Shown piece by piece: positions 47,721 through 64,000 of a stretch of DNA of 64,000 nucleotides. Positions within the stretch are counted from its first letter, which is position 1, and each line of letters begins with the position of its first letter. Origin of the DNA: Leptolinea tardivitalis (GTDB taxonomy: Bacteria; Chloroflexota; Anaerolineae; Anaerolineales; Anaerolineaceae); NCBI RefSeq assembly GCF_001050275.1, contig NZ_BBYA01000010.1:558001-622000 (forward strand). Direction: 5' to 3'. The notes under the pieces are model-generated. The model was not told where the DNA came from. It searched no databases and worked only from the letters and a program-made list of their open reading frames with translations. Position numbers and translations under genes: made by a program.

Positions 47721-50138
47721 TCAGTCCTTTTCCTCGTCCACCGGAGGAGCCGCCTGTCCATAATCGAGTACCTCGCGAACCTGACTACCTGGTTGGGAAG
47801 GGCCGATGATGCCGCTCTCTTCCATGGTATCAATCAGACGGGCAGCCCGGCCGTAACCAATGCGCAATCGCCGCTGAAGCATGGATATGGATGCCCGTCC
47901 GAGAGTGCGAACGAGATCCACCGCTTCATCGTACATTGGGTCGGATGATGGTGTCTTGCCATCATCCCATAAATCAGGCTGGCGAAGGGGAGTGGTAGGC
48001 AGAGTCGGCATGGGTACAGAAAGCGGGGCTGTTGACCTGCCTTCCACAGCCGCATCGGCGGCTGCCATCTTCCAATGATCCACCAGACGGTTGATCTCGG
48101 CATCGGCCGTATATACACCCTGCAAACGAACAGGCGCAGGAGCATCAGGAGCCAGGAAGAGCATATCACCGCGGCCCAGTAGACGCTCGGCGCCGGGCTG
48201 GTCCAAAATGACCCGACTGTCTGTATTTGATGTCACTGTGAAGGCGATACGGGCCGGAAAATTGGCCTTGATTAAACCTGTCACTACGTTCACAGATGGA
48301 CGCTGGGTCGCCAGGATTAAATGAATTCCGGTTGCACGGGCCAGTTGTGCCAGCCGGGTGATGCTTTTTTCCGTTTCTTCACCGGCGATCATCATCAAAT
48401 CAGCCAGTTCATCCACCATTACCACGATATACGGAAGTTTATCGGTATTTGTGTTGTTATATTCGGCAATGTTGCGCACCCGGCATTTGGCAAAGCGTTC
48501 ATAACGGCTTTCCATCTCGCGGATCATCCACTGAAGGACGGCTGGAACCTTGGCAGCATCGGTGATCACTGGCGCAAGAAGATGTGGCAGGTGGTTATAA
48601 CCGCTCATTTCCACCCGTTTTGGATCCACCAATACCAACCGGAGGGTCTCTGGAGTGTTGTTCAACAGCAGGCAGGTGAGAATAGAATTCTCACAGACAG
48701 ATTTACCTGAACCGGTAGTACCGGCAATCAACAGGTGAGGCATGGATGTCAGATCGGCAACAATGGGTTTGCCGGAAACATCCTTTCCAAGGGCAATCCG
48801 CAATGGACTGCGCATCTTTTTGAAGGCATCGCTTTCCACCAGCTCATGAAGTGCTACCTTGCTGGTTTCTTCATTCGGAATCTCTATCCCCACAAAGCCG
48901 CGGCCGGGAACCGGCGCCTGAATGCGGATACGCTGGGCAGAAAGAGCCAGTGCCAGGTCATCAGCCAGACTGACGATTTTGGAAACGCGTACACGAGTAC
49001 GGCCGTTTCGAGTTTCGATGAAATCGGGTTCCACACCATACTGGGTGACAGTGGGACCGCGTTGAATATCGACCACATGCACAGGGGCGCTGAACAGACG
49101 CAATGTCTCTTCAATTTTGTTCGCACGATCTGTATCAATATAACCCTGGATGAAGACCGGTTCAGCCGGGTCGAGAATATCATCAATTCTTGGCAAAACC
49201 CAGGGTGATTTTGAGGCCTCAACCGGTGTCATCGGCGGCGGTGTGTGATCCTCACGTTCTTCCACCTGACGGACCGCTAGAGTCACAGCCTTTTTTACAG
49301 CCGGTTTTCGGTTTGGCAGATTGTTTAGAGGATGAAAACCCGGAGGCAAAGGTCCAGAGGATCCAACGGTAGGCTGCGGCTGTGATGATAGTCCGGCGGA
49401 TTCCATAACAGCAGAAACGGGTGAAGCATCGATGGTATCACGCACCTGCTGGCGAAGCCGGTAGATTACTTCTTTGAACAAAGGAGGTGGAAGCTGTAAG
49501 GCAAAAGAACCGGCCACCAGCATCCAGACCATCAGAATCAATAGAGCACCGGGAAGTCCCAGTCCGGCAGTCAACAAGCGTTCAAAAAACGCACCGAGGT
49601 AACCACCGCCTTGCCCTTCAAAAGCCATTTCCCAGCCACCACCGGCCAGAAGATGTATCCATGAAAGCAGGTTTATATACAAAAAGAATATTCCCGCCGC
49701 GCGGCTGGTTGTGAGCGGCGGCAGGGTTTCAAGACTGCGAAGAACCAGCCAGAAACCAACTATCAGCAGACCGAATGGCAGGGCATACATTCCCCAGCCG
49801 GTCAACCGGCTGATCACCACCACCCACTGTGCTGAGACTTCGGCATCCTGTTCTGTGATCAAACACACCAATGTCAGGAGACCGATGACAATACAGCTTG
49901 CCCCGACAATATCCAGACGCCGATCTGGAGATAGGTCTTTCCATTTTGGAATTTGAGCCCAGATCGTTTTTATGCCATTCCATAACCGGCCTGATTTCAT
50001 ACCGTTTACCATGCGAACTGTAGCATGCGGCTGGCGGTGACTGTTCTTTTTTACCTGTGGTGCCGGTTTTTTTGTAGCCCTTCCGGGACGAACCGGGCTG
50101 GAAACATTTTTTACAACTCTGGTTACAGGTTTAACCAT
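47721..50138 (-). CDS. ftsK: DNA translocase FtsK/SpoIIIE
   Basis: The 805-residue protein has a basic N-terminus, about four membrane helices (residues 70-220), a linker, the alpha domain and the RecA-like motor with Walker A GTTGSGKS and Walker B V-V-M-V-D-E-L-A-D-L. The C-terminal winged-helix gamma domain (L-Q-R-R-L-R-I-G-Y-G-R-A-A-R-L-I-D) reads chromosome polarity sequences. It clears DNA from the closing septum. Length is typical of a compact FtsK. Confidence 0.95.
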   Translation of the reverse strand: MVKPVTRVVKNVSSPVRPGRATKKPAPQVKKNSHRQPHATVRMVNGMKSGRLWNGIKTIWAQIPKWKDLSPDRRLDIVGASCIVIGLLTLVCLITEQDAEVSAQWVVVISRLTGWGMYALPFGLLIVGFWLVLRSLETLPPLTTSRAAGIFFLYINLLSWIHLLAGGGWEMAFEGQGGGYLGAFFERLLTAGLGLPGALLILMVWMLVAGSFALQLPPPLFKEVIYRLRQQVRDTIDASPVSAVMESAGLSSQPQPTVGSSGPLPPGFHPLNNLPNRKPAVKKAVTLAVRQVEEREDHTPPPMTPVEASKSPWVLPRIDDILDPAEPVFIQGYIDTDRANKIEETLRLFSAPVHVVDIQRGPTVTQYGVEPDFIETRNGRTRVRVSKIVSLADDLALALSAQRIRIQAPVPGRGFVGIEIPNEETSKVALHELVESDAFKKMRSPLRIALGKDVSGKPIVADLTSMPHLLIAGTTGSGKSVCENSILTCLLLNNTPETLRLVLVDPKRVEMSGYNHLPHLLAPVITDAAKVPAVLQWMIREMESRYERFAKCRVRNIAEYNNTNTDKLPYIVVMVDELADLMMIAGEETEKSITRLAQLARATGIHLILATQRPSVNVVTGLIKANFPARIAFTVTSNTDSRVILDQPGAERLLGRGDMLFLAPDAPAPVRLQGVYTADAEINRLVDHWKMAAADAAVEGRSTAPLSVPMPTLPTTPLRQPDLWDDGKTPSSDPMYDEAVDLVRTLGRASISMLQRRLRIGYGRAARLIDTMEESGIIGPSQPGSQVREVLDYGQAAPPVDEEKD

Positions 50139-50249
50139 GATTCGGCTCCCTGCATGAAAGTAACTGTTTTGTATTCATCTGCGTATTGATGCAAGAGACT
50201 TGCCAGATAACTCTTTTTCAAGGAAATTTTCTTCAAATGAGTAAAGGAA

Positions 50250-50279
50250 ACCCCAGGTACCGTTGAAGATACCCGGGGT
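50250..50279 (-). terminator. Terminator after the third lipoprotein gene
   Basis: ACCCCAGGTA pairs with TACCCGGGGT (one mismatch) around a 10-base loop, followed by TTTCC on the minus strand, 31 bases beyond the stop of the lipoprotein gene. Confidence 0.65.
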
Positions 50280-50310
50280 CTGTCAATAACCATAAACAGC
50301 AAAGATTGAT

Positions 50311-51420
50311 TTATAACGGAGGATTCAACCAGGCACTGAGTTCGTCGACATAAAGAACCAGATGACTGGTTTCACGGGCGCCGATCAACAATCCGTAGCC
50401 GCCGCTATCATAACTTCCATCGGTGGATTCGGCAATCTGGGATCCATTAATATAGAAGGTAAAGTGATTCCCTTTGGCTAGAACACCAATCCGATTGATG
50501 GCATTTGCGCCGGGTTTGATATTGGAATTGGACGTCCAGGCAATGATATTGGTGACTGCCGTCTCATTATCACCCGGTTTGGCATTCCATTTTTGGAAGG
50601 CGAATTTCCCATCACAGGTGATATTGAACCAGTATCCCCTATCGGCCGTAGAACGATCGGGAGACCGGAACATGAGGCCCCATTTATCCATACCGTGGCA
50701 GGTATTACCAAACATGCCCGTGGCTTCAATATAGACATTATCCGCTTCGTTGCTTGCTAAACGCCAGCCATTATCTTTTTGCAGACCGGTTAACACCATG
50801 TAGCCGTTCTGAAAATCTACCGTTGTATAAGCATCCGGTCCAAGAGGCCAGTTCTTGCCATTATCCATGGTATCTGTCCAGGTTGGAACAGGCAACCTGT
50901 TGCGCGGATCATCTGCTGTGAAGGTGGCCGTCAATTGAATGGATGGAAGTGGAGTACCACCGGGGGTAAGTGTTGGAGGCACGGTGGCTGTTGGTGTAGC
51001 ACTCGGCATGGCAATCGGCGGGGTGGAGGTGGCACTGGTGATCACGGTGGGCAGTTGTGTGGCGGCCGCGCTTAATAGAGTAGCCAGAGCTGTAACATCC
51101 GTCGTGGGGGTGGATAAATCGCCGGTCTTCCCCTGGGTTGTTGGAGTTACAGAACCTTCATCCGGATTTTCGGAAGTGGGTGTTACAAGTGCACCAATTT
51201 CCTCTTCTTCCAGAGGCGGCGTGGTGGGGGTGGCAAGATTAAGATCTTCCGTTGGAGTTTCGGTTGCCGGTTCCCCAGTGTTTGTAGGCATGGCTGTCAA
51301 CAAGAGGGCAACCCTGGTTGCCATCTCCGATGTGGTCATGGTCGGCTTAACGGCTGGAATAACACTGCATCCGGCCATCATGACACTGACAAGAGTAATG
51401 AAGATAAGTACTTTTCGCAT
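50311..51420 (-). CDS. Lipoprotein with Thr/Pro tether and concanavalin-like domain (paralog 3)
   Basis: The ATG at 51420 follows a GGGAGG site and gives a signal peptide with M-A-G-C at 15-18. Residues ~25-170 are extremely Thr/Pro/Ser-rich. The C-terminal ~190 residues have W-x-L-G-P, F-Q-N-G-Y-M-V-L, G-L-M-F-R-S and F-T-F-Y-I-N-G-S-Q-I, typical of a LamG/DUF1080-like jelly roll. The domain is related in pattern to the tandem lipoproteins at 5244 and 6075. The ligand is unknown. Probably a surface protein held away from the membrane by its tether. Confidence 0.8.
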   Translation of the reverse strand: MRKVLIFITLVSVMMAGCSVIPAVKPTMTTSEMATRVALLLTAMPTNTGEPATETPTEDLNLATPTTPPLEEEEIGALVTPTSENPDEGSVTPTTQGKTGDLSTPTTDVTALATLLSAAATQLPTVITSATSTPPIAMPSATPTATVPPTLTPGGTPLPSIQLTATFTADDPRNRLPVPTWTDTMDNGKNWPLGPDAYTTVDFQNGYMVLTGLQKDNGWRLASNEADNVYIEATGMFGNTCHGMDKWGLMFRSPDRSTADRGYWFNITCDGKFAFQKWNAKPGDNETAVTNIIAWTSNSNIKPGANAINRIGVLAKGNHFTFYINGSQIAESTDGSYDSGGYGLLIGARETSHLVLYVDELSAWLNPPL

Positions 51421-51493
51421 AAGTTGCCTCCCGGGCGGGGCAAATAGATTCGTCCAGAGGCGTTGTTGCAAGATTAATGCCGATTGCGCGTGA

Positions 51494-51979
51494 CTAGGCT
51501 TTGTACCCGATCATCCTCAAGAAGTCTTTGCGCCAGGCAATATCTTTTTCTGCTTCCACACCTGAAGGTTTCGCTCCATCTGCCACACCGATGATCCCAC
51601 GACTGTCACCGGTATCAGCCACCAGAACTTTGACATTGTTGGCTGTGGCACAGAAGATATGGCAAACCTCCGGTATATTCTTCACGGCATTCAGAACATT
51701 GATGGGGAAGAATCCTTCCCCAAGGAAAATGATGAAGCTGTGCCCGGCTCCAATAGCCAGGGCATTCTTTTTGGCCAGCTCAATCATTTCAGGGTTCGTA
51801 CCAGAGAACCGAACAAGGCAGGCTCCGGAGGCTTCATTAAACGCCAGGCCAAATTGGATGCCTGGGACTGCACTTACCAGGGTTTCATGAATATCTTCCA
51901 CTGTCTTGATGAAATGCGACTGCCCGAGAATAAAGTTGATATTCTCTGGTTTTTCTACGGGAATGGCTAACAGTTCCAT
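51494..51979 (-). CDS. Adenosine-specific kinase family protein (DUF355)
   Basis: The 161-residue protein matches the small family of archaeal and bacterial proteins named adenosine-specific kinase (DUF355): conserved E-N-I-N-F-I-L-G-Q-S-H-F-I-K-T, G-I-Q-F-G-L-A-F, E-A-S-G-A-C-L-V-R, I-F-C-A-T-A-N and G-D-S-R-G-I-I-G-V-x-D-G. The ATG at 51979 follows AGGAGG; the longer frame is rejected. The biochemical role of the family is poorly settled. It lies 41 bases after the acyltransferase gene. Confidence 0.88.
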   Translation of the reverse strand: MELLAIPVEKPENINFILGQSHFIKTVEDIHETLVSAVPGIQFGLAFNEASGACLVRFSGTNPEMIELAKKNALAIGAGHSFIIFLGEGFFPINVLNAVKNIPEVCHIFCATANNVKVLVADTGDSRGIIGVADGAKPSGVEAEKDIAWRKDFLRMIGYKA

Positions 51980-52020
51980 AATAATCCTCCTGCCTGTTAT
52001 TTCAATGATTTTTCTCTTTA

Positions 52021-53043
52021 TCATGACGCCGGCGGGGTGAGATCGGCCCGCATCACAAACCGGTCTACCGCACCAAAGCGATACTTGTATTCTTCATCAC
52101 CGCGCATGAAATCAAATTCCGTTCGTCCGTGTTCAATGGACCATTGAATCAGGTGACCGAGTAAAACCCAGCCAGGGGAAAGCGCCTGAAAATCACGGTT
52201 GAGACCTGAATTGTAGACCCAGATCTTGTTTCTGTAATCAAAACTCAGATAGGATGCCGCTTTGTGTCCATCCACTTCCAGGAAAGCCAGTTGAAGGTTT
52301 TTGTGGTTAAAAGCGTTATGAACCACCCGGCGGAGAAAACCTTGCATGGGGGGTTTAAGAAAAGAGTCTTTGTCACCGTCATTTTTCATCAATTCAAGGA
52401 AACCATCAATTTCAGCATCCAAAGATGATTCATCTTCTGCAAAATACCACTTGACCGAAACATCCGCTTCTTCCGCCCGGCGCATTTTCCGGCGGATTTC
52501 ATGGCGCTGCTTTTTATCAATCCCGGCGAGGTAAGTTTCCCAGTCTCCCGCCAGGGTAATACAGGGACTGTGCTGCAATCGTTCAACCGAAAGGGTCCAT
52601 CCGGCTTTCCCGGCCGCGGAATGTAAAACCGGCAGAGTCGGCGATGAATCCAGCAAGTTAAACAGTTGAACTATTTTTAAACCTGGGATATGCATTGCGA
52701 TAAGGTTGTTCAACAGGGCTGCTATGAAGGCTTCCTGAAATTCTGGCCTGACCAGCAGGTCAAGGAAATCAGATACCTCCACAGAACCCACATTCAAAAC
52801 TGCCGTTGAGCCATCTGGCTGGCGTATGGTGAACAATGGGGCAATGCCGACCGGAACCCCATTCTGATGCGCTTCCAGGATCATTAATTCTGCGTCAGTC
52901 CATTCACCCCCGCCGCGGGTTTCCCACCAGAGTTTTTGATAATCAAATTCCAAAAAAGGAGCCTGAACGAGATTTGTCTCAAGAAGCTGATCCCAGTCCA
53001 CTTTCAGGCGGTCAGAGAATTCGGTGTGCAGGGTAAAGTTCAT
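52021..53043 (-). CDS. CelD/FemAB-like GNAT acyltransferase
   Basis: The 340-residue protein has the double-GNAT architecture of the BioF2/CelD (Acetyltransf_6) family. Seen are an N-terminal W-x-x-L and F-L-E-F-D-Y-Q-K-L-W-W block, the basic helix Y-L-A-G-I-D-K-K-Q-R-H-E-I-R-R-K, then A-A-S-Y-L-S-F-D-Y and a final F-D-F-M-R-G-D-E-E-Y-K-Y-R-F-G motif. Family members are linked to exopolysaccharide or cell-envelope modification. The acceptor is unknown. Upstream of the DUF355 gene on the same strand. Confidence 0.85.
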   Translation of the reverse strand: MNFTLHTEFSDRLKVDWDQLLETNLVQAPFLEFDYQKLWWETRGGGEWTDAELMILEAHQNGVPVGIAPLFTIRQPDGSTAVLNVGSVEVSDFLDLLVRPEFQEAFIAALLNNLIAMHIPGLKIVQLFNLLDSSPTLPVLHSAAGKAGWTLSVERLQHSPCITLAGDWETYLAGIDKKQRHEIRRKMRRAEEADVSVKWYFAEDESSLDAEIDGFLELMKNDGDKDSFLKPPMQGFLRRVVHNAFNHKNLQLAFLEVDGHKAASYLSFDYRNKIWVYNSGLNRDFQALSPGWVLLGHLIQWSIEHGRTEFDFMRGDEEYKYRFGAVDRFVMRADLTPPAS

Positions 53044-53102
53044 ACCCCGATTTTATCGTTCACCCTGCCGATCTGCAAGAAGCACGTAGAAGGGATAAAG
53101 AT

Positions 53103-53130
53103 AGAGGCCAACCTGAGAAGGTTGACCTCT
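53103..53130 (-). terminator. Terminator after the Tad-like operon
   Basis: AGAGGCCAACCT pairs with AGGTTGACCTCT (one mismatch) around GAGA. It lies 25 bases beyond the stop of the TadE-PA14 gene and ends its transcript on the minus strand. Confidence 0.7.
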
Positions 53131-53154
53131 ACTTTACTGTTTCTTTCTTTTACA

Positions 53155-55026
53155 TCATCCGCCCAGGGTTGGGATTACGATCGGGGTCTTTGGCGTCTTC
53201 GTTGGAGTTATTGAAGGCGTTCGTGTCGTTGTAGGAGCTGGAGGCGCCTCGGTCGTAGCGGTTGCCGGCTTCACCGTAGGCGGCGCCACCGGCGTAGTGG
53301 GTGTTGGAGGAGGTGGCGGCTGTGTGGTATGCGTGGGCGAAGGAGGTACAGGTGAATTAGTTGGTGTCCTGGTGACCGTCGGTGTACGGGTGACCGTCGG
53401 GGTAAGCGTGATTGTCGGCGTGCGGGTGACCGTCGGGGTAAGCGTTCTCGTCGGGGTAAGCGTTCTCGTCGGTGTTTGGGTTATTGTAGATGTTATGGTA
53501 ACCGTAGATGTTCTGGTGAGCGTGATTGTGGTTACCGGGCTTGTCGGCAGGTACAAAACCGCCTTAGGTATAACCTCCTTAACCTGACTTGCACTCTTCC
53601 AGGACAATCTGTTAACCGCATTACCACCGCCTTCAAAATATTGAAGTTCCAGATCATATTTCTTGCAACGTTCAAGCGTTATTTTTCCAGACTTTTCTTT
53701 AGCATCCTGGTAAACCCAGTTGTCAATCACTTTCTTTCCATTGACATATAAAACTGTTCCGTCATCCGATTTTGTATAGAAAGTATATTCTTCGTTATAC
53801 AACGGCATAATCTGGGCTGTGTAGCGGCCGGCAAATGCATCAATATTCACATTAGCCGGACCACCCGAACCCCAATTTTCATCCACATAACTCAGATTTA
53901 ATACGGTGATGGGACTGTTGCCGGTAAACGGATCAAGGTAATTGGTGTAGTTGAAATATTCCGCCCTGATTCCATTTCCGTTGCTCTCGCAGGGAACCAG
54001 TGTTGCCGTTGAGGTTTTGGTATGAGTAGGCGTATTTGTTGGTGTTGGTGTCAACGTCTCCGTGGGAGTAAGCGTTAATGTATTTGTGGGAGTCTTTGAG
54101 GATGTAGACGTAGGTGTATCCGGGATCAGGTTGCCTTCAGACAGACCGGTGACACGCGAAATCCGGAATTTTTCCACATAACCATCGCGGGTGGTATTCA
54201 GGCGCAATGTTGGCCACCATTCGCTGATGAGCGGCATGATCATATTATGCCGATATGTGATGGTGATGCGCACCCGGTCGCCAGGCCCACCGGCATCATC
54301 CATAAAAGCTTTAACCGGACTGGTATACATGGAACAGACTGACGGATAATACAGGTAGTTCGCCTGACCAGTATGACCGGTTAAATAGTAAGGATTTACA
54401 TCAGACATCTGTGTATAAAAATGTTGTTTATCCTTCGCTTCATTTAAGGGTGCCGCCTGCCGGGTGGTATCTTCCACAAACCGTGATGAACAGATGGATA
54501 CATAGAAGAAACCAGGCTTACTCGGATCGCCCATATTTGACGTATCAAGTGTGGCCCCATTTGCAGGGGCATTCTTCAGGTATAACAGATAATTGCCAGA
54601 AACAGAATCGTCATAGGCAATTCCACTGGCCCCCGACTTTGCAGCATCTCGGATGGATGGAAGCCGGGCCCAATCCTGCAATGCCTGGGTTCGGTCGCGT
54701 GCCAATTTCTTTTCTGCTTCGGAGGCCGTGGCCAACGCATCTACCTTGCAGTCATGGTTGCCATCTTCTGCGGTCAGACCAAGTGCTTCATCTGCCTCAT
54801 CACAGTAGTCTGGATTGTATTCACCGGTGACTGCATAACGCACAGCCATACGGGCTCCATTTTCCAGGGCAAGCCAGGCCTGTAATAAACGGCCGAATTC
54901 TACTACGCCGAATGTGGCCAGCAAGAGAACCGGTAGAGCCATGGCAAATTCCACCATACTCTGCGCTGGAGCCTTTTTAAATCGGCGTACAATTCTATAT
55001 CCGAGGCTACGATCTTTCGCTTTCAT
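53155..55026 (-). CDS. TadE-like pseudopilin fused to a PA14-like domain with Thr/Pro repeats
   Basis: The 623-residue protein starts with a TadE-type segment: S-M-V-E-F-A-M-A-L-P-V-L at 23-34 and a single membrane helix to about 47. Residues 50-300 are an extracellular region with several Cys. A Thr/Pro linker at 300-345 leads to a PA14-like carbohydrate-binding domain (about 350-490) with G-I-R-A-E-Y-F-N, W-G-S-G-G-P and F-Y-T-K-S-D-D-G-T-V-L-Y-V-N-G. The end is a long Thr/Pro-rich repeat tail. Last gene of the Tad-like operon, 7 bases after the VWA gene. Likely a surface adhesin or minor pilin. Confidence 0.8.
   Translation of the reverse strand: MKAKDRSLGYRIVRRFKKAPAQSMVEFAMALPVLLLATFGVVEFGRLLQAWLALENGARMAVRYAVTGEYNPDYCDEADEALGLTAEDGNHDCKVDALATASEAEKKLARDRTQALQDWARLPSIRDAAKSGASGIAYDDSVSGNYLLYLKNAPANGATLDTSNMGDPSKPGFFYVSICSSRFVEDTTRQAAPLNEAKDKQHFYTQMSDVNPYYLTGHTGQANYLYYPSVCSMYTSPVKAFMDDAGGPGDRVRITITYRHNMIMPLISEWWPTLRLNTTRDGYVEKFRISRVTGLSEGNLIPDTPTSTSSKTPTNTLTLTPTETLTPTPTNTPTHTKTSTATLVPCESNGNGIRAEYFNYTNYLDPFTGNSPITVLNLSYVDENWGSGGPANVNIDAFAGRYTAQIMPLYNEEYTFYTKSDDGTVLYVNGKKVIDNWVYQDAKEKSGKITLERCKKYDLELQYFEGGGNAVNRLSWKSASQVKEVIPKAVLYLPTSPVTTITLTRTSTVTITSTITQTPTRTLTPTRTLTPTVTRTPTITLTPTVTRTPTVTRTPTNSPVPPSPTHTTQPPPPPTPTTPVAPPTVKPATATTEAPPAPTTTRTPSITPTKTPKTPIVIPTLGG
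53372..53533. repeat. 18-bp tandem repeats coding a Thr/Pro tail
   Basis: Nine units in an 18-base register start at 53372; units such as GTGACCGTCGGGGTAAGC recur exactly and others differ by a few bases. They encode six-residue units like R-T-P-T-V-T in the tail of the TadE-PA14 protein. The 3' units are more diverged. Copy number could vary between strains. Confidence 0.85.
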
Positions 55027-55033
55027 AATTGCC

Positions 55034-57028
55034 TCACTTGGTCAACCGGGTGTAAATACGAGAAGAAATATCAATGAAAATGGACTGAAGATCCGTCCCA
55101 TCATCCGTGTAATAATACTGGCCGCAGGATTGCTTGGTGGGATAAGGCAAACCAGTTGCCGGATTGCTGCTGCATTCATCCGTTAGACGATTGCCATCAT
55201 CACCGACTGAAGCCATATAACGCAACAAATATTCACCGATCGGGCGGTTGGTGACTCCGGCAGGAGAATCACCAGCATCGCCGAGGCCGATAGAATAAAT
55301 AGCCATATCAGAGCCTTTAATATCTTCATTATCGTTGGCTGATTTCAACAAGGCAGCTTCATCGATCATATCCAATGCATAATCATAGACAGAATAATTC
55401 ACCATATTCCAACCGGAAGGAGCATCTGTGCTCCCTCTGGAATCAGGCGGACACTGGTTTTTAAATCCATTTAAGATATTGGGCCGCTTGTCTTTATGGC
55501 AGGTACGCGTTGAGCCAAAACCGTAGTAATCGCGCTCACCGGTATCCACATAATCGCCGTCGCCATTTTTATCGATCTGGATATGTGTCCAGGTTTTTTT
55601 ACTATCGATACAGTCGTTGCTCCACATAAAACTTCCCAAACCACCCTGGCAGTAACCGTTAGGAAACTCGGTTGTCGGGGTGCTCAGGTTGACCAGACCA
55701 TCAGAGAGGAAAACCATTACCCAGACGGAGTTTGGACGCCCGTTCTTTTTCAGAACATCTGCGCCGGTCTTGATACCACAGCCTGTGCAGGTGGAGTTCG
55801 GGGTCAGGTATTTCCAGGCACAGGAATCATAGTCGCCATCCGGATTACAGCCTCTGGCATTTAGATAGTTACGTGCATATGTCTGGTCAGCAGCATCGTA
55901 AACATTGTTTGGATTCCAGTCATAAGAATCCAGATAATCTGCATTGGGTTTATTTGAGTCGCATGGAGTGGTTCCATCCATACGGTATTCATCCGGCGTA
56001 CAGGATCCGAGAGTCGAATCCACATCCTTCCCATCGCCGTCGCGGTCTTCTGGATAGACGGGATTGAACTTCAACCCCAGAGTTGGGAGACCGTCAATAG
56101 TAACCAGACTTGGGGAAAACCAATCGTTTCTTATCAGATTTGACGGCGGATCATCATGCACCTTAAGTGCATCAATTGCATCTTTGGCTTCCGAAAGCTT
56201 AATATGCATCGGAACCGTACTGGGATCAGGAGCTGTTACATCAAAACCAACCACAGCCACATGATCATAGCCATCATACAACGTATCGATAAGGGCTTTG
56301 GCTGCTGTTTTGGCAGATTTTAATGGGTAACAGGTATCTGCCGCATTACATGACGATGGATCGTATGGAACAGTGTAGGCTGGGACGGTATTTGCGCTGT
56401 GAGCCATGGATTCAGATGTATCAATCACAATTACCAGATCAATAGGCGCCGCTTCTGATATGGCGTGAGCACGCAGCGGGACCGATTGGAAACCCAGCAG
56501 GAATAAGAAATACAGGGGGGCTGGAACACGGGCATCAATCCACACCAGTTTGCGGTCATTTTCTTTGGGAAAACCATCCGGCGCCAGGCTGGTATCCGGG
56601 CATTGTACGTAAAATTCCGACGGCATGGTAGATTCTGGATCTCGCAATCCATCACCATCTTTATCGCATACATACATCCGAAAATCATCAGGGTTGGCTG
56701 ACAATTGAATGTTGTTCAATTCCATGACTTCTTTGGCTGCAGCCAACATCCGGTTATATGGGGGAGGGTTCGTGGGGTGAGCGGCGGTTTTCACACCTTC
56801 TGCCTTGTACTCATTCGATGCCGCCACAGCAGCAGCATCAATGGCACGGCGAAGCTGACCGTAGGTAACATACAAAGAACCGGCGTCGATTGCCAGGCCG
56901 GCAAAAAAGATCATGGCCAACAGGGTCACCGCAAAAATAACGATGACCTGACCCCGACCCGAGGAATTTTCAGGGTTCCGGTGTTGGGGTGGGCACAGCC
57001 ATTGGGAGAGGCATAATCGTATACGCAT
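55034..57028 (-). CDS. TadG-like protein with von Willebrand A domain and calcium-binding repeats
   Basis: The ATG at 57028 follows GAGGG and overlaps the upstream TadE-like gene by 59 bases. The 664-residue protein has a TadE/G-type N-terminus (G-Q-V-I-V-I-F-A then a membrane helix to about 47), a region up to ~190, and a VWA domain whose MIDAS motif is D203-T-S-E-S207. Acidic loops resembling EF-hand/thrombospondin-3 calcium sites occur as D-K-D-G-D-G, D-R-D-G-D-G and D-K-N-G-D-G. Many Cys suggest disulfides. Likely an extracellular metal-dependent adhesin linked to a Tad-like secretion/pilus system. Confidence 0.85.
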   Translation of the reverse strand: MRIRLCLSQWLCPPQHRNPENSSGRGQVIVIFAVTLLAMIFFAGLAIDAGSLYVTYGQLRRAIDAAAVAASNEYKAEGVKTAAHPTNPPPYNRMLAAAKEVMELNNIQLSANPDDFRMYVCDKDGDGLRDPESTMPSEFYVQCPDTSLAPDGFPKENDRKLVWIDARVPAPLYFLFLLGFQSVPLRAHAISEAAPIDLVIVIDTSESMAHSANTVPAYTVPYDPSSCNAADTCYPLKSAKTAAKALIDTLYDGYDHVAVVGFDVTAPDPSTVPMHIKLSEAKDAIDALKVHDDPPSNLIRNDWFSPSLVTIDGLPTLGLKFNPVYPEDRDGDGKDVDSTLGSCTPDEYRMDGTTPCDSNKPNADYLDSYDWNPNNVYDAADQTYARNYLNARGCNPDGDYDSCAWKYLTPNSTCTGCGIKTGADVLKKNGRPNSVWVMVFLSDGLVNLSTPTTEFPNGYCQGGLGSFMWSNDCIDSKKTWTHIQIDKNGDGDYVDTGERDYYGFGSTRTCHKDKRPNILNGFKNQCPPDSRGSTDAPSGWNMVNYSVYDYALDMIDEAALLKSANDNEDIKGSDMAIYSIGLGDAGDSPAGVTNRPIGEYLLRYMASVGDDGNRLTDECSSNPATGLPYPTKQSCGQYYYTDDGTDLQSIFIDISSRIYTRLTK

Positions 57029-57719
57029 GAACCCTCGCAGGATCAGAAACAAACAGGTTGGCAAATGGTATTGCCAGTACCTGATGGTAACAATAATAAA
57101 ATTCCACACCCACAAACCCCTTATTCATGGGAGACGTTGAAATTAATTCAGATTCTACTTTTGCCGCCGTATAGTAAGGTTGGGGAGTAGGTGAAAGGAG
57201 ATTCCCTTTACAATCTTTCTTCCAGTTGTCATTATGACTCAAGTCACTATCGTGATCGGAAAGCGCCCAGTAACCGGCCGGCGGATTCACTTTATCTACG
57301 ACCGTATGCCCCTTGACTGTAAACACTTCAATGAGTACATCGTCAACCGTATGATCTACATAAATTAACGGATTTAAACCTCCGCAGAATTTCGGATCTG
57401 CCGAACAGGCGGCTGACCCTTCAGGCGGGGCAAAAACACAGGCGGAAGTGTAATAAAAACTATAAGGAAGAGTCCGGTTGCATTGATAGGCACCGTTTGT
57501 ATATGTATACGCCTGCTGGACCTGAGGATCACGCAGAGAAGCGGCACGGGCTGCTTCACGCGTAAGGTCCATTACATCCAGATAGCGGGCAATGAAAAAA
57601 GCAATCTCTACAAGACCCAGCAGAATCAATAAAAGAACAGGCAAAACTATCGCCAATTCTACGAACGATTGGGCTTTCTGCCTATCCTGAATGATCACAC
57701 GCCATTTTTGAATTAACAT
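56970..57719 (-). CDS. TadE-like pseudopilin
   Basis: The 249-residue protein has a TadE-type start: A-Q-S-F-V-E-L-A-I-V-L-P-V-L-L-L at about 16-31, with the conserved Glu, followed by one membrane helix. The outer region (60-245) has several Cys and ends in P-T-P-T-P-E-P. The ATG at 57719 is chosen because the longer frame has no signal; its ribosome binding site is weak. First gene of the three-gene Tad-like operon; the pilus ATPase and prepilin peptidase genes are not in this window. Confidence 0.82.
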   Translation of the reverse strand: MLIQKWRVIIQDRQKAQSFVELAIVLPVLLLILLGLVEIAFFIARYLDVMDLTREAARAASLRDPQVQQAYTYTNGAYQCNRTLPYSFYYTSACVFAPPEGSAACSADPKFCGGLNPLIYVDHTVDDVLIEVFTVKGHTVVDKVNPPAGYWALSDHDSDLSHNDNWKKDCKGNLLSPTPQPYYTAAKVESELISTSPMNKGFVGVEFYYCYHQVLAIPFANLFVSDPARVHAYTIMPLPMAVPTPTPEP

Positions 57720-57964
57720 AACCGCATGGTTACCCTGGAACGACAACCGAAAAAGATGGAATTTGTCCAATCCTACGATAAAGCGGATTATAGGAATTGT
57801 CAATAAAAAAACCGTGAACCCAACAAAAGTGCAAAGCCTCCCTGTTGTCCTTTAATTTTATATCAATTTATTCTAGTTGTATCCACCTATTTTGGTAGTT
57901 TTGCCCATTAAAACCTTCCAAAAATGGCAGGTTGAATTTTCTCTGGATGGATGTATAGTGCTAT

Positions 57965-57977
57965 ATAGAACATATAT
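57965..57977. promoter_or_regulatory. AT-rich 13-mer upstream of the phage module, shared with the LuxR gene upstream region
   Basis: ATAGAACATATAT occurs here 19 bases before the first phage-module ATG, and again on the other strand at 11660-11672 upstream of the LuxR-type gene. The extended site GAACATATATTC is a near-palindrome. It may be an operator or a chance AT-rich match. Confidence 0.25.
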
Positions 57978-57995
57978 TCCATTCGCGGAGAAAAT

Positions 57996-58325
57996 ATGCC
58001 CAGATCAAAAACACAGCGCAACCCGGCTCTTAAGAACGAATCTATCGAGGATAACGCCGCCCAGGCATTGCATTCGTCCATCACATTGATGCAAGACCTG
58101 CTGGTACGAGTGGTCGCCCTGGCAGATGAAGGCAAGAACCTGAAGGAATTGTTGCAAATTCTCGAAACTGTCGGCAAGACATCCAACCGCCTGAGCCTGC
58201 TGTTGAAAAATCAGAAGCAGCTGGGTGGAGGGGAGAATCTGGCAGATTTCCTCAACCAGGCACTGGCTGAAGTCGTTCAAGAGATGGGAGACGGCACAGA
58301 AAAGAGAAAAAATGCCGCTGTGTAA
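57996..58325 (+). CDS. Small helical phage protein, candidate small terminase subunit
   Basis: The 109-residue protein is mostly helical with no membrane segment. A Lys/Arg-rich start could contact DNA, followed by helices D-L-L-V-R-V-V-A-L and L-L-Q-I-L-E-T-V and a C-terminal L-N-Q-A-L-A-E-V-V-Q-E-M. No specific family is recognised. Its place just ahead of the large terminase gene is where a small terminase subunit is usually encoded, so that role is inferred from position. CGGAGA precedes the ATG. Confidence 0.6.
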   Translation: MPRSKTQRNPALKNESIEDNAAQALHSSITLMQDLLVRVVALADEGKNLKELLQILETVGKTSNRLSLLLKNQKQLGGGENLADFLNQALAEVVQEMGDGTEKRKNAAV

Positions 58326-58439
58326 TCCGCCGGCCAAATGGCACATTGACAGGCCGCTCACCGGAACCATGATGGATGTCACATCTTTCTACGGATCCCT
58401 GCGCCATCCCCGCTGAGCCGCTGCCAGCACCGGCCGATA

Positions 58440-58468
58440 AAAGGGGCGGGTTTCACACCCGCCCCTTT
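58440..58468. repeat. Palindromic hairpin, copy 3 of the GGGRCGGGTT-type repeat
   Basis: AAAGGGGCGGGT (58440-58451) pairs perfectly with ACCCGCCCCTTT (58457-58468) around TTCAC. It lies between two phage-module genes, 22 bases ahead of the next ATG. The arms match the hairpins at 15144 and 30745 in the core GGGGCGGGT. Confidence 0.75.
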
Positions 58469-58489
58469 CGAAAAAGAAAGCAGGAAACC

Positions 58490-58789
58490 ATGAATCCTCC
58501 TGAAATTTCCACCGAAGAACAGGCTGCCCTGTTCGCTGAACAAATGCGCCATGCACTTGACCTGCTCCGCGCGGAGGTAGATTCTCTGCGTGTTCAAAAC
58601 AACCATGACCGCGACATGGCCAATCTACGCTTAACCGGTCTGGAAACCGCTGTGCACGACCATGAAATGCGCATTCGGGCAGACACAGACGGGGTAACCC
58701 AATTCAAGATGTGGGCAGGGCTGGCATCTGGTGGATCAGGGTTGATGGCCCTGGCGGCACTGATCCGCAGTTTTCTGGGAGGCGGATAA
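58490..58789 (+). CDS. Small coiled-coil protein with C-terminal membrane helix (phage module)
   Basis: The ATG at 58490 follows AGGAAA; the longer frame is rejected. The 99-residue product has a long heptad-rich helix (about 10-70) followed by a C-terminal hydrophobic segment G-L-A-S-G-G-S-G-L-M-A-L-A-A-L-I. This layout resembles XhlA-like hemolysin/holin helper proteins, but the likeness is of shape only. Its place between the small-terminase candidate and the large terminase is unusual for a lysis gene. The stop overlaps the terminase start by one base (TAATG). Confidence 0.65.
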   Translation: MNPPEISTEEQAALFAEQMRHALDLLRAEVDSLRVQNNHDRDMANLRLTGLETAVHDHEMRIRADTDGVTQFKMWAGLASGGSGLMALAALIRSFLGGG

Positions 58790-60327
58790 TGATCCGGCCG
58801 CACACGCTCCATACATTGAAAGCCCTGCTGCGCAACCCGGTAGCTTTTACAGAATACACCGGCGGGATTCGTCTGCGCGAATATCAATGCAGCCCCATGC
58901 TGGCCATACTGAAATCGGTGCTCGCTCACCGGGGTCTCAGCTTTGTGATCATGTTTCCGCGTCAATCCGGCAAGAATGAACTACAGGCACAACTGGAATG
59001 TTACCTCTTGACCCTTCTTTCACAAACACCGGCAGAATTGGTCAAGATATCGCCCACCTGGAAACCCCAATCGCAGAATGCCATGCGCCGGCTTGAACGG
59101 GTCCTGCAGCAGAATCGCATCGTCCAACGGCAATGGCGCAAGGAAAACGGCTACATCTACCGGGTGGGTTCAGCCCGCATGATGTTCTTTTCTGGTGCTC
59201 CGGAAGCCAATATTGTGGGAGCCACCGCCAGTACCTTGCTGGAAGTGGATGAAGCCCAGGATGTTTCCATTATCAAATATGACAAAGATATTGCCCCCAT
59301 GGCCGCTTCGACCAATGCCACTCGTGTTTTCTGGGGCACCGCCTGGACGAGCAAAACACTGCTGGCACGAGAGCTGCGAGCTGCCCGCCAGTCTGAACAG
59401 GCAGATGGCATTCGCCGGGCATTTGTACTCACAGCTCGTGAAGTGGCAGCCGAAGTGGAAGCCTACGGTCGTTTCGTAGCTGAACAGACCGCCCGCCTTG
59501 GACGCGACCATCCGTTGGTAAAAACCCAGTTTTTTTCTGAAGAGATCGATGCCGAAGGCGGCATGTTCCCTCCCTCCCGCCGCCAGGTGATGCGCGGCGG
59601 GAGGCATGCGGCCAGCGGAATGCCGCAGCCGGGCTGCATCTATGCCATGCTGCTCGATGTGGCCGGCGAAGACGAATCAGCATCAGCTGACAGCAGCGGG
59701 CAGGTCAACCGGCGGCGGGATTCCACCGCTCTGACGATCGTACAGGTGGATCTTTCGACCCTGCAGGATGATCTTCTGCGGGCGCCCACGTATCGCTGTG
59801 TCCATCGCCGTCTGTGGACCGGCATCAAACACACCGCCCTGTACGGCCAACTGCATGCGCTAATTGAAACCTGGCAGCCGCAGGTGGTGGTGATGGACGC
59901 CACCGGTATCGGGGCAGGACTGGCGTCTTTTCTTCAAAAACGCTTTCCCAACAAGGTCTTGCCTTTCCTTTTCAACCACGTCAGCAAATCAAAGCTGGGA
60001 TGGGATTTCCTCAGCGTGTGCGATTCCGGCCGCTGGCAGGAGCCGAACACCGGCGGGATTGACGATCAGTCTGCCCTGCAGGCCCTGTTCTGGCGGCAGG
60101 TGGAAGGCGCGCAGTACAGGGTGGATGACAGTCCCGGCCGCCTGATGAAATGGAGCGTGCCCGATGGCACTCGTGACCCATTAACCGGTGAACCGCTGCA
60201 TGATGACCTGTTGATCAGTGCCGCCCTGTGTGCCGTACTGGATGGTTATGCCTGGTTTGATCCGCAGCCGGCGCTGCTTGTGCCAGGGCAGGATCCGCTA
60301 TTTGATCTGGATTCAGGAGAATATTGA
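58789..60327 (+). CDS. Phage terminase large subunit
   Basis: The 512-residue protein is the DNA-packaging motor. The N-terminal ATPase has a Walker A-like loop P-R-Q-S-G-K-N at 57-63 and Walker B L-L-E-V-D-E with D154/E155. The C-terminal RNase H-like nuclease has acidic residues in L-L-D-V-A-G-E-D, V-V-M-D-A-T-G-I-G and a final H-D-D-L-L-I-S-A-A-L. The ATG at 58789 overlaps the preceding stop by one base. Portal gene follows with a TGATG overlap. Confidence 0.9.
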   Translation: MIRPHTLHTLKALLRNPVAFTEYTGGIRLREYQCSPMLAILKSVLAHRGLSFVIMFPRQSGKNELQAQLECYLLTLLSQTPAELVKISPTWKPQSQNAMRRLERVLQQNRIVQRQWRKENGYIYRVGSARMMFFSGAPEANIVGATASTLLEVDEAQDVSIIKYDKDIAPMAASTNATRVFWGTAWTSKTLLARELRAARQSEQADGIRRAFVLTAREVAAEVEAYGRFVAEQTARLGRDHPLVKTQFFSEEIDAEGGMFPPSRRQVMRGGRHAASGMPQPGCIYAMLLDVAGEDESASADSSGQVNRRRDSTALTIVQVDLSTLQDDLLRAPTYRCVHRRLWTGIKHTALYGQLHALIETWQPQVVVMDATGIGAGLASFLQKRFPNKVLPFLFNHVSKSKLGWDFLSVCDSGRWQEPNTGGIDDQSALQALFWRQVEGAQYRVDDSPGRLMKWSVPDGTRDPLTGEPLHDDLLISAALCAVLDGYAWFDPQPALLVPGQDPLFDLDSGEY

Positions 60328-61688
60328 TGACAGAACCCCGAACTACCCTTGCCTCCCGGCTGGCCGCCCGTCTTTTCGATCGTGAGATCAACCATCGGGT
60401 GGATCTGGCTCTGGCAGCCCTGGATGATACCCGCGACCGACTGCTCAGACCGATATTTGCCGCACTACCTTTAAGTAATACACGTGACCGGCCTGACGGC
60501 GAACGGCTTGACCTTCTCCGCCAGTCGCTCGAAGCCTGGCGCACCAATCCTCTTGCCCGGCGGATCGTTGAATTGACTTCACAGTACGTAGTTGGCGGCG
60601 GAATTGGCCTTGATTGCCGGCATCAGACCACCCGGCTATTCCTGCAGGAATTCTGGGAACATCCCCTCAACCGCATGGACAGCCGCATCATCGAATGGTG
60701 TGATGAATTGACCCGTTCCGGTGAGCTCTTCATTCTGATCACCACCGACCCGGCAGGTATGAGTTATGTGCGCGCCATTCCAGCCACAGATATGGCAGAA
60801 ATCTCCTGTGAAGAAAATGACCTTGAGCAGGAAACCAGGTATGTACTGCAGGACGGCCGTTCTTACAGAGGCCGATCTGCCTTGACAGACACAAATGGAT
60901 TACCCCCTTTCATTCTACACTACGCCATCAACCGGCCGGTGGGGGCTCTACATGGAGAAAGCGACCTGGCTCCCCTGTTGAAGTGGCTGGCGCGTTATTC
61001 AGGTTGGCTGGAAGACCGCGCCCGGTTAAATCGGTTTCGCACAACTTTCCTCTATGCCGTCACATTGAAAGGTTCTACCAGTGTCGAGCGCCGCAAGCGG
61101 CAGGCCGAACTCAATCTTAATCCGCCGTCACCCGGCAGTCTGCTGGTGAAGGATGAGGCGGAGACCTGGGAGACGTTATCACCGCGGTTGGAATCTTCCG
61201 ACGCCAATGAAGACGGACTGGCTCTAAAGAAAATGATCGCGGCTGGAGCGGGTATTCCACTGCACTTTCTGGCTGAGCCGGAAAGCTCCACCCGCACAAC
61301 GGCGGAAAGCGCCGGCGGACCGACTTTCCGTCATTATGAGCAGCGACAGGAATTTGTCCTCTGGATGCTGCGTGACGTGCTTCAGGCTGTGTGCCTGAGA
61401 GCCGTACGCTGCGGTCGTTCACTTGACCCGAAAGCCGCCATCGAAATTCGCGGGACGGATATTTCGGCACGTGATAACAGCGAGTTGGCCGGAGCCGCCT
61501 CCCAGATTGTTTCCGCTTTCAGCGAACTGCATTCGCGCGGGCTGATCGACGATGCCGAGCTGCTGCGGCTTGCCTATCGGTTTGCCGGTGAGGTGGTTGA
61601 TATCCCTGCTTTATTACAGCAGGCTGTGGATAACCATCCAAAATCTGTGGAAAACCCTGTTGATAAACAATCAGAATTCGGTTCATAA
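60327..61688 (+). CDS. Phage portal protein
   Basis: The 453-residue protein is of normal length for a tailed-phage portal ring subunit, through which DNA enters the capsid. Motifs include N-P-L-A-R-R-I-V-E near residue 70, an acidic helix W-C-D-E-L-T-R-S-G-E-L-F-I, and the later helix region A-G-I-P-L-H-F-L-A with E-S-S-T-R-T-T-A-E-S, as in SPP1/HK97-type portals. A TTG one codon upstream is possible, but the ATG at 60327 (TGATG with terL) is preferred. Confidence 0.85.
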   Translation: MTEPRTTLASRLAARLFDREINHRVDLALAALDDTRDRLLRPIFAALPLSNTRDRPDGERLDLLRQSLEAWRTNPLARRIVELTSQYVVGGGIGLDCRHQTTRLFLQEFWEHPLNRMDSRIIEWCDELTRSGELFILITTDPAGMSYVRAIPATDMAEISCEENDLEQETRYVLQDGRSYRGRSALTDTNGLPPFILHYAINRPVGALHGESDLAPLLKWLARYSGWLEDRARLNRFRTTFLYAVTLKGSTSVERRKRQAELNLNPPSPGSLLVKDEAETWETLSPRLESSDANEDGLALKKMIAAGAGIPLHFLAEPESSTRTTAESAGGPTFRHYEQRQEFVLWMLRDVLQAVCLRAVRCGRSLDPKAAIEIRGTDISARDNSELAGAASQIVSAFSELHSRGLIDDAELLRLAYRFAGEVVDIPALLQQAVDNHPKSVENPVDKQSEFGS

Positions 61689-61740
61689 CCGGGGAATTCT
61701 TGTTGAGAACCTGTGTAAAACGTTCATGAAAAGGAGGAAG

Positions 61741-63699
61741 ATGCCTTCACCAAAGGAAGATCAAACAACCCGCGTAACACTGGAAATTATCAATCCAATG
61801 GCGGAATCGGCTGAACCAGAGGGATTTCTTATTCTGGCCATTTCAGCAGGTGTGGGAAATGGATGGAATTTTCCCCCGGATGTACTCCGCCGGTCAATCC
61901 CCCTGTGGGAAGGTGTGGAGTGCTTCATTGACCATGCCAGCCGGGATGATCCATCTGGCAGCCGGTCCATCCGCGACCTGGGAGGTGTATTTTCGTCCCC
62001 CGCCTGGGAAGATTCCCGACAGGGCATCCGTCTGACATTAACTCCCATCGGACCGGCGGCTGGTGTGGTCCGTTCGGTTGGGCGGGAGATGGTGGAGCAT
62101 CCCGGAGTCACAGTACCCAGGGTCGGCTTTTCCGCTGATCTGGTGCTGCGTGGAAACCGCGATGCCAATCTTGAAGGCATCAGGGAGGTGCAGGAAATCA
62201 TCAAAATTCTGTCTGTTGATCTGGTCCACAACCCTGCGCGCGGAGGAGCATTTCTTCAAGTCTTGAGCGGCGGGGGATTACCTATATCCTGTATGGAGGA
62301 AGGAGTCAATTTGAACAAAGAAGAACCAGCAGTAGAAAACCAACCGGCGGACATTGTGCCAACCCTGACTGATCTCTGCGGCAACCTTCTGGAGGCCCGC
62401 CTTTCAGCCAGTTCCCTGCCCATGCTGGCCTGTGAACAGATCCGCATGCGTTTTGCAGACCGTGTTTACAATCCAGCAGAGCTGAACGAAGCCGTGGAAT
62501 CCGCCCGGCAGCTGGTGGCCGGATTATCCGGTGGAAGCGTGGTGCAGGGACCGGGGCGCATCACCGCCATGTATGACACACGTGACCAGCTTCAGGCTGC
62601 CACCGATGATCTGTTCGGCGCCGACCGTGATCCAAGCCTGACCGGGCTGAATCCTGCACGCCTGAGCGGTATTCGTGAACTGTACCTCACCCTCACCGGA
62701 GATGTGGATATGCACGGCGGGTATTACCCTGAACGCACCCGTCTGGCCACCACCGCTGATTTTTCAGGGCTGGTCAAGAATTCTATGAACAAGGTGATTG
62801 CCAACCGCTGGCGGGAGCTGGGTGAAGCCGGTTACGACTGGTGGCAGCGCATCTCCTGTGTGGAGCACTTTGACAGCCTGCAGCAGATCACCGGAACCCT
62901 GGTCGGTACGGTGGGCGACCTGCCTGAGGTGGCGGAACGCGGTGAGTACCAGGAACTGGTGGTGGGTGATTCACCGGAAACCGCCGATTGGAAGAAGTAC
63001 GGCGGTTACATTCCGCTGACGCTTGAACTCATTGACCGGGATGAAACCCGCAAGTTGAAAGCCTATCCGCGCGAACTGGCCGCCGCGGGTCTGCGCAAGA
63101 TATCCAGCCTGGTTTCAGCTGTATTCACGGCCAACAGCGGAATCGGTCCAAACCTGGCTGACGGCGGGGCATTGTTCAACGCCACGGCTGTTACCACGGC
63201 GGGCGGACATAAGAACCTGCTGACCGGTGCATTGACTGCCGCCGAATGGGATGCCGTCTGCACGGCGGTCTACAACCAGCCGATGCTGATTAAAAACGCG
63301 TCCGGCTCCTACGGAGCTGGTCCGCGCATGGCCGTCAACCCCCGGTATTTGCTGGTGCCCCGGGCTTTGCAGCTGGCCGCCATGAAGATTCTCTATCCAT
63401 CATTGGAAAATACCGCCAATATTTACAGCGAGAATATGCAGCGCGGCCAACCGGGTGATGTGATCACCGTGCCGGAATGGACAGATGCCACCAACTGGGC
63501 GGCCGCCTGCGACCCGCGTATTGCACCGGCAATTTTCATCGGCGAGCGGTTCGGGATCATGCCTGAAATTTTCCTGGCGGGTGATGAGCTCAGTCCGGCC
63601 GTCTTCACGCATGACGAACACCGCCTTAAAGTGCGCCATTTCCTGGCTGTGTGGGTGAACGACTTCCGCCCGCTGCACAAGTCAAATGTAGCCGGGTAA
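61741..63699 (+). CDS. Prohead protease-major capsid protein fusion
   Basis: AAGGAGG precedes the ATG at 61741; the longer frame overlaps the portal gene. In the 652-residue product, residues 1-180 resemble a prohead protease: H65 in F-I-D-H-A-S, S131 in G-F-S-A-D, and I-L-S-V-D-L-V-H-N-P-A-R-G-G-A-F near 157-171. Residues ~190-330 are a charged, helical scaffold-like segment. Residues ~340-652 look like an HK97-fold major capsid protein (gpT-like), with Y-P-E-R-T-R-L-A-T-T-A-D-F, G-G-Y-I-P-L-T-L-E-L and V-N-P-R-Y-L-L-V-P. A second, in-frame start with a strong Shine-Dalgarno lies at 62311. Confidence 0.85.
   Translation: MPSPKEDQTTRVTLEIINPMAESAEPEGFLILAISAGVGNGWNFPPDVLRRSIPLWEGVECFIDHASRDDPSGSRSIRDLGGVFSSPAWEDSRQGIRLTLTPIGPAAGVVRSVGREMVEHPGVTVPRVGFSADLVLRGNRDANLEGIREVQEIIKILSVDLVHNPARGGAFLQVLSGGGLPISCMEEGVNLNKEEPAVENQPADIVPTLTDLCGNLLEARLSASSLPMLACEQIRMRFADRVYNPAELNEAVESARQLVAGLSGGSVVQGPGRITAMYDTRDQLQAATDDLFGADRDPSLTGLNPARLSGIRELYLTLTGDVDMHGGYYPERTRLATTADFSGLVKNSMNKVIANRWRELGEAGYDWWQRISCVEHFDSLQQITGTLVGTVGDLPEVAERGEYQELVVGDSPETADWKKYGGYIPLTLELIDRDETRKLKAYPRELAAAGLRKISSLVSAVFTANSGIGPNLADGGALFNATAVTTAGGHKNLLTGALTAAEWDAVCTAVYNQPMLIKNASGSYGAGPRMAVNPRYLLVPRALQLAAMKILYPSLENTANIYSENMQRGQPGDVITVPEWTDATNWAAACDPRIAPAIFIGERFGIMPEIFLAGDELSPAVFTHDEHRLKVRHFLAVWVNDFRPLHKSNVAG
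62295..62313 (+). promoter_or_regulatory. Internal ribosome binding site and TTG start inside the capsid gene
   Basis: GGAGGAAGGAG (62295-62305) lies 5 bases before an in-frame TTG at 62311, codon 191 of the fusion. It could start a 462-residue scaffold-capsid product separate from the protease. An in-frame ATG also exists at 62293 (codon 185) but has no such site ahead of it. Confidence 0.5.
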
Positions 63700-63719
63700 T
63701 TGAAATTCTCCCTCTGCCA

Positions 63720-63750
63720 AACTCCAAGGGTCTTTGAGACCCTTGGAGTT
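63720..63750 (+). terminator. Long perfect hairpin after the capsid gene
   Basis: AACTCCAAGGGTCT (63720-63733) pairs perfectly with AGACCCTTGGAGTT (63737-63750) around TTG. There is no T-run after it, so it may be an intergenic palindromic repeat or an RNA-processing site rather than a simple terminator. Confidence 0.6.
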
Positions 63751-63796
63751 CAAGAAAACTTGAATCATCCATAAAAGAAACAACAAGGAGAAACAG

Positions 63797-64000
63797 ATGC
63801 AGAAAATGATCGACTTATTGTCTTCCCGGAAATTCTGGGCAGCCCTGGTGGGGCTGGCAGTGATCATCCTCAAGGCCTACCGGCCGGATTTTCCCGTCAG
63901 TGAAGAGGAGATCACCAACCTGGTGGCGGTTCTGGCGGCCTATATTCTGGGGACGGCCATTTCAAATGCCGCTGATGGGTTGAAGTCCATCAGCCGGTAG
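63797..64000 (+). CDS. Small membrane protein, holin-like
   Basis: The complete 67-residue gene ends with TAG at the last base of the window and has an AAGGAG site. It has a hydrophobic segment at about 13-26 and another at about 42-57, joined by a charged Pro-rich turn, then a short polar end. This two-helix layout resembles small phage holins, which time host lysis by permeabilising the membrane. Direct evidence of the family is lacking; its place after the capsid gene is the main support. Confidence 0.6.
   Translation: MQKMIDLLSSRKFWAALVGLAVIILKAYRPDFPVSEEEITNLVAVLAAYILGTAISNAADGLKSISR

Follow-up and report, generated by a model that had tools for sequence, protein, structure and literature searches.

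A conserved candidate internal start in a protease-scaffold-capsid head gene of a Leptolinea tardivitalis prophage

The DNA analyzed here, referred to as the window, is a 64,000-nucleotide stretch of Leptolinea tardivitalis on a contig of 724 kb; the genome measures 3.69 Mb. Its phage head genes lie on the plus strand in the order terminase large subunit (58711..60327; PF17289, E 5.5e-6), portal (60324..61688; phrog_10963, E 2.1e-31), and the fused capsid gene that is the subject of this study, followed by a holin-like gene and, further on and outside the window, an endolysin gene. Past the capsid gene, ten frames were scanned against PHROGs (L134 2132-11826; contig 622132-631826, outside the window), giving one endolysin, one protein of unknown function, one acetyltransferase, seven frames without a match, and no match to a tail family. 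Adjoining the phage genes on the minus strand are two frames (55034-57803) which by eye resemble TadG/TadE-type pilus assembly proteins, and which probably represent host DNA near the prophage edge. Rfam at the gathering score gave zero matches in 57000-64000, and zero tRNA or tmRNA genes were found in 50000-64000.

The fused gene is a single open frame from the ATG at 61741 to the stop codon ending at 63699 (61741..63699, stop included), and encodes a protease-scaffold-capsid chain of 652 residues, an assignment based on the sequence and on full-length relatives. Its first start is preceded by a Shine-Dalgarno sequence, AAGGAGG (61731..61737; 7-nt core, spacing of 3), and the usual anti-Shine-Dalgarno sequence stands at the 3′ end of the host's 16S RNA. 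The original prediction, that one frame holds a prohead protease-like part, a scaffold-like part, and an HK97-like capsid, is borne out by a match to PF25209, a gp21-like structure model, and predicted helices. The gene therefore belongs to the tripartite kind, with the scaffold role assigned from the helices and their position.

The prohead protease domain (residues 28-175; 61822..62265) was delimited from an alignment, a predicted model, and structure comparison. D64, H65, S131, and D160 are invariant across 33 aligned sequences, and the model has 10-residue pLDDT means of 70 to 95 over residues 31-180. The closest solved structure is T4 gp21 (Z 10.7, 129 aligned residues, rmsd 3.6; Foldseek E 1.4e-3), and herpesvirus proteases rank after it, the next at Z 8.5. 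The model thus points to a fold of the T4 gp21/herpesvirus-assemblin kind. At the sequence level, Pfam and NCBIfam gave zero matches in the N-terminal part, and PHROG gave weak ones (phrog_29592, unknown function, 4.9e-8; phrog_15531, head maturation protease, 7.9e-5). A sequence-level link to gp21 was dropped, as hhalign against gp21 found nothing in the protease part.

A poorly conserved linker, defined from the alignment (residues 172-212; 62254..62376), connects the protease to a helical scaffold-like part (about residues 205-320; 62353..62700), which is recognized by predicted helices and position. The HK97-fold major capsid domain follows (residues 334-645; 62740..63675), matching PF25209 (Phage_capsid_4) at E 2.6e-28 and 100.4 bits against a gathering cut-off of 27; the same family is found in 68 of 68 members of the relevant alignment (A3) at E 0.01. 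Because modeling of the whole chain gave a poor result for the capsid, the scaffold-capsid product expected from the internal start was predicted separately with 68 sequences (pLDDT 79, pTM 0.70). Structure prediction of both halves, which had been proposed as a check, thus places the C-terminal half near HK97-like capsids (best Foldseek E 8.5e-8) as it places the protease near gp21. The capsid model compares with encapsulins at Z up to 14.0 and with HK97 prohead II at 11.6, and a profile search against PDB sequences returned a major capsid protein as its best match (E 0.015). The predicted fold of the capsid part is accordingly that of HK97.

Within the linker stands an internal Shine-Dalgarno-like sequence, GGAGGAAGGAG (62295..62305), which is kept in relatives, and 5 nt downstream of it an in-frame TTG (62311-62313) at codon 191. 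Comparative scanning and modeling indicate that initiation there would yield a scaffold-capsid product of 462 residues (62311..63699, stop included). The in-frame ATG at 62293 (codon 185) has a Shine-Dalgarno pairing score of 0 and was ruled out as a start, which makes the TTG the better candidate. TTG generally initiates less well than ATG, and the two nearest relatives of this gene have ATG at the corresponding site, so the internal start of the window may be weak.

A homolog search for the same fusion, as called for by the original prediction, gathered 126 loci: 46 on viral contigs, 60 on genome contigs, and 20 from whole genomes (the window's own included), the genome-contig and whole-genome sets overlapping in part. 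In 115 of these loci the frame reaches 600 aa or more, and they clustered at <90% identity into 92 representatives, the window's gene among them. The remaining 11 loci had frames of <600 aa; eight are cut by a contig end, and the other three, L029, L043, and L046 (the last also cut), have disruptions in the capsid part, away from the junction: an in-frame TAG near 2650 in L029, and frame changes near 3730 in L043 and near 4240 in L046, which contains N letters. These interruptions are probably sequence errors. One of the six patterns used in the viral-contig search was derived from the linker, which slightly favors similar linkers, and the patterns of the genome-contig search were derived from the capsid. 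Among the genome contigs with a relative, 57 of 60 are labeled Chloroflexota or belong to groups that we assigned there; three relatives lie on contigs titled Syntrophobacterales (L071), Deltaproteobacteria (L091), and Ignavibacteriales (L096), representing either misbinned contigs or wider hosts. Cultured bacteria are also among the sources of relatives: Leptolinea sp. HRD-7 (L049), with ATG at the internal site, and Anaerolinea thermolimosa IMO-1 (L055).

The linker, measured past the PARGG motif of the protease, varies from 19 to 127 codons across these relatives. It was scanned for at least 5 nt of AAGGAGGT located 4-17 nt ahead of an in-frame ATG, GTG, or TTG. Such a site is present in 83 of the 92 representatives, compared with a mean of 37.5 (maximum 52) in synonymous-codon shuffles and 20.3 (maximum 31) in shuffles of linker codon order (300 trials each), and with 10 and 3 in the +1 and +2 frames. 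Restricting the scan to ATG gives 80, against 30.2 (maximum 41) and 13.0 (maximum 21) in the respective shuffles and 4 and 0 out of frame. The contrast is weak when the core is relaxed to 4 nt (91, shuffle mean 78.2, maximum 87), and at 6 nt there are 53 sites against a shuffle mean of 14.5 (maximum 22). Within the linkers, 83 of 233 in-frame ATG codons have a 5-nt core; in the rest of these genes, 8 of 848 do. The nine representatives lacking a 5-nt core comprise eight with a 4-nt core (L002, L015, L021, L022, L060, L065, L096, and L104) and one with no scored site (L007).

The context of these sites also resembles that of an initiation region. Of the 81 that fall inside a preset range of 3-9 nt, 79 have a spacing of 4-5 or 7-8 nt, and the start codon is ATG in 78, GTG in two, and TTG in one. 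Folded as RNA, 50-nt segments at the 83 internal starts are less structured than 40 segments taken elsewhere in the same gene, by a mean of 9.35 kcal/mol. Between -15 and +15 the GC fraction is 0.40-0.43, and by +30 it has returned to 0.58; selecting the best core biases composition upstream of the start only, and a similar dip (0.41-0.48) surrounds 67 first starts. The proposal that GGAGGAAGGAG and the TTG mark a likely second start exactly at the protease/scaffold junction is therefore supported by comparison, and the evidence for a conserved, in-frame candidate start after the protease domain is strong, as far as sequence can indicate.

In six loci (L038-L042 and L100), the N-terminal domain is not alignable to that of the window, and the scaffold-capsid part is common to both. 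Four of the alternative domains were scanned; these match phrog_18299 (head maturation protease) weakly, at E 1.2e-4 to 0.022, and reach the cut-off of no Pfam family. With the linker taken as the 70 codons preceding the scaffold anchor, the internal signal is retained in all four representatives with such a domain.

The junction itself is intact. In each of the 117 loci that align on both sides of it (the other nine of 126 are not alignable in this way), the linker is open and in a single frame, a count that is independent of the selection for long frames. The 5,747 linker codons of the 92 representatives include no in-frame stop, which is partly a consequence of that selection. A sequencing frameshift or a split gene at the junction, one of the outcomes that were to have overturned the original prediction, is thus rejected, and the absence of linker stops in 117 of 117 loci indicates that the fusion is conserved as well. 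Start and fusion thus both seem to have been maintained by evolution, an argument that each of the two chains matters.

From the fusion, the initiation signal, and the open linker, together with the two predicted folds, we infer that two chains are produced in some ratio, co-assemble, and are cleaved, and we consider it likely that dual initiation operates in this one prophage head gene, giving protease-scaffold-capsid and scaffold-capsid chains. Initiation at 61741 would produce the 652-residue chain, and initiation at the internal site (here TTG 62311) the 462-residue one; judged by their lengths, the two would have masses of about 71 and 50 kDa. Since the scaffold and capsid parts are common to both, the two chains could enter one procapsid: the long chain, by means of the scaffold and capsid parts it contains, would act as a carrier that takes the protease inside, and the short chain would build the remainder of the shell. 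The enclosed protease would then cut off itself and the scaffold parts, and how strong the two starts are relative to each other would set its dose. HK97 has about 60 proteases to 415 capsid subunits, and D3 about 90 per procapsid (PMC12749128); were every chain to carry a protease, the number would greatly exceed this usage. The strength of the two Shine-Dalgarno cores is a counter-point to dual initiation: among 84 relatives, the core is longer at the first start in 27, equal in 34, and longer at the internal start in 23, so that Shine-Dalgarno length gives no prediction that capsid chains outnumber protease-bearing ones.

We regard it as improbable that all chains are instead made at full length, with the protease removed solely by cleavage in the linker and the Shine-Dalgarno-like sequence having no role in initiation. 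Prohead proteases of the gp21/assemblin fold do cut themselves and the scaffold, and certain tripartite genes have no clear internal start, such as that of Microcystis phage Mae-JY22, in which zero sites with a 5-nt core were found; full-length synthesis nevertheless leaves the start codon, its spacing and frame, the excess over synonymous-codon shuffles, and the unstructured RNA unaccounted for. The location of the signal at a domain border would also suit a ribosome pause that lets the protease fold ahead of scaffold synthesis. Pausing requires neither a start codon at fixed spacing nor unstructured RNA, however, and with start codons used at all 81 counted sites, and sites in frame much more often than out of frame, we consider this explanation very improbable. 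The shorter chain might also be translated from a separate internal transcript and not from the same message, as in herpesviruses, where scaffold genes are nested within the protease gene and UL26.5 is the product of a separate internal transcript. The assemblin fold of the protease invites this comparison, but a scan of 58000-64000 for one promoter type (sigma-70) found three sites (2.8 in shuffles), of which the sole plus-strand site (58346-58373) lies upstream; a separate internal promoter was therefore set aside, none of this type being seen inside the gene, and the chance of such a transcript is slighter still. Slightest of all is the chance that the signal is a functionless relic of two once-separate genes that fused, for although HK97-like phages keep the protease and the scaffold-capsid protein as separate genes (PMC12749128), a relic should decay in a linker so variable in length and sequence, and 83 of 92 representatives retain the signal.

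Dual initiation was further considered in other fused or nested head genes, and the weak or absent support in other tripartite families is another counter-point to it. For the type of Pseudomonas phage MD8, a long frame was present in 78 of the best 80 loci, which gave 15 representatives at <95%; nine of these have a 5-nt core in the bin at query position 220, a number not above chance (shuffle mean 6.6, maximum 10). For the Flotzy type (best 80 loci, 13 representatives), no near-junction bin reaches a quarter of the 13 at a core of 5 nt; twelve have a 4-nt core at position 211, and L314 has its best site elsewhere. In the ClpP-type fused genes (L128, L136-L215, and L257-L336; best 80 per list), an AGGA-like core precedes ATGCC at a single post-protease position, although amino-acid conservation explains this equally well and the shuffle test cannot separate the two; neither of the two ClpP types exceeded its controls. 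The Pd_22F type, in which Peptidase_S78 matches at E 0.0017, under its cut-off, shows slight excesses (23 of 41 loci, 15 representatives; bin 200, 4 vs. a mean of 1.1 and maximum of 3; bin 180, 4 vs. 2.1 and 4) that are no more than suggestive of an internal start, and in some members the match is confined to the protease part. The gene of Bordetella PBb002 has one ATG with a 4-nt core, at codon 218. As a control, the scan was applied to lambda (NC_001416), where the annotated nu3 start (record 5132; L337 1133) lacks a 4-nt core and was not recovered, which also counts against dual initiation. The scan instead picked the ATG at codon 309 of C, with a 6-nt core (record 5342; L337 1343). This would fit the gpNu3 used experimentally, which we take to be of ~130 residues.

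The four representatives whose N-terminal domain differs, several Pd_22F members, and the AGGA-like core of the ClpP type are hints that dual initiation could be a general dosing device of tripartite genes, in which the shell would be a mosaic, the rarer isoform would carry the protease, and the start would mark the fixed border at which different proteases are exchanged; we put this forward tentatively, as a possibility that somewhat more speaks against than for. In phages that package their protease, a small number of protease copies is used alongside hundreds of capsid subunits, and a conserved internal start would be a simple answer for those that encode both in one gene. The capsid subunit would then serve as an enzyme carrier as well. 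If dual initiation is correct, annotation of these genes as a single protein overlooks a second, possibly major, product, and a second N-terminus would be expected in particle proteomics.

That nested starts are known in phage head genes, as the original prediction had stated, is confirmed by the annotation of lambda C/Nu3, which shares with the present gene an in-frame nested start inside a protease-scaffold gene. The lambda capsid protein E is encoded by a separate gene, whereas the nested product here carries the capsid and is thus more than a scaffold. T4 gp21 and herpesvirus assemblin (of the UL26 kind) resemble the present gene in the predicted fold of its protease domain, and internal initiation inside gene 21 is noted in the T4 record; gp21 differs in having no capsid protein on the same chain, and the herpesvirus assemblin chain is not known to carry one. 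The major capsid proteins of HK97 and D3 have the layout of the internal-start product, scaffold then capsid, but their protease is a separate upstream gene (PMC12749128).

The view of the original prediction that the fused form is unusual was too strong. MD8 gp5 is described as encoding protease, scaffold, and capsid in one gene (PMC8508860), the title of a paper on Salmonella phage Gifsy-2 refers to a "tripartite capsid gene," and protease/capsid fusions are covered by two "exception" models of NCBIfam (NF045540 and NF045541). MD8 gp5 and, judging by its title, Gifsy-2 resemble the present gene in joining protease, scaffold-like part, and capsid in a single frame. They are not identical in kind: the MD8 protease is described as ClpP-like (same source), while the nearest fold here is that of gp21/assemblin, and the two NCBIfam models match the capsid part only, at 87.2 bits against a cut-off of 475 (NF045540) and 91.3 against 525 (NF045541), which places the gene outside both families. 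NF045540 represents a ClpP-like fusion, and no ClpP family is among the Pfam and NCBIfam matches listed for the window gene. The words "internal" and "start codon" occur 0 times in the text of the MD8 paper (PMC8508860). None of the titles and abstract openings listed by literature searches describes an internal start for such fused genes, although the Gifsy-2 paper may do so in its body. Tripartite head genes and nested scaffold starts were thus each already known, and it is their combination in this gene that appears to be new.
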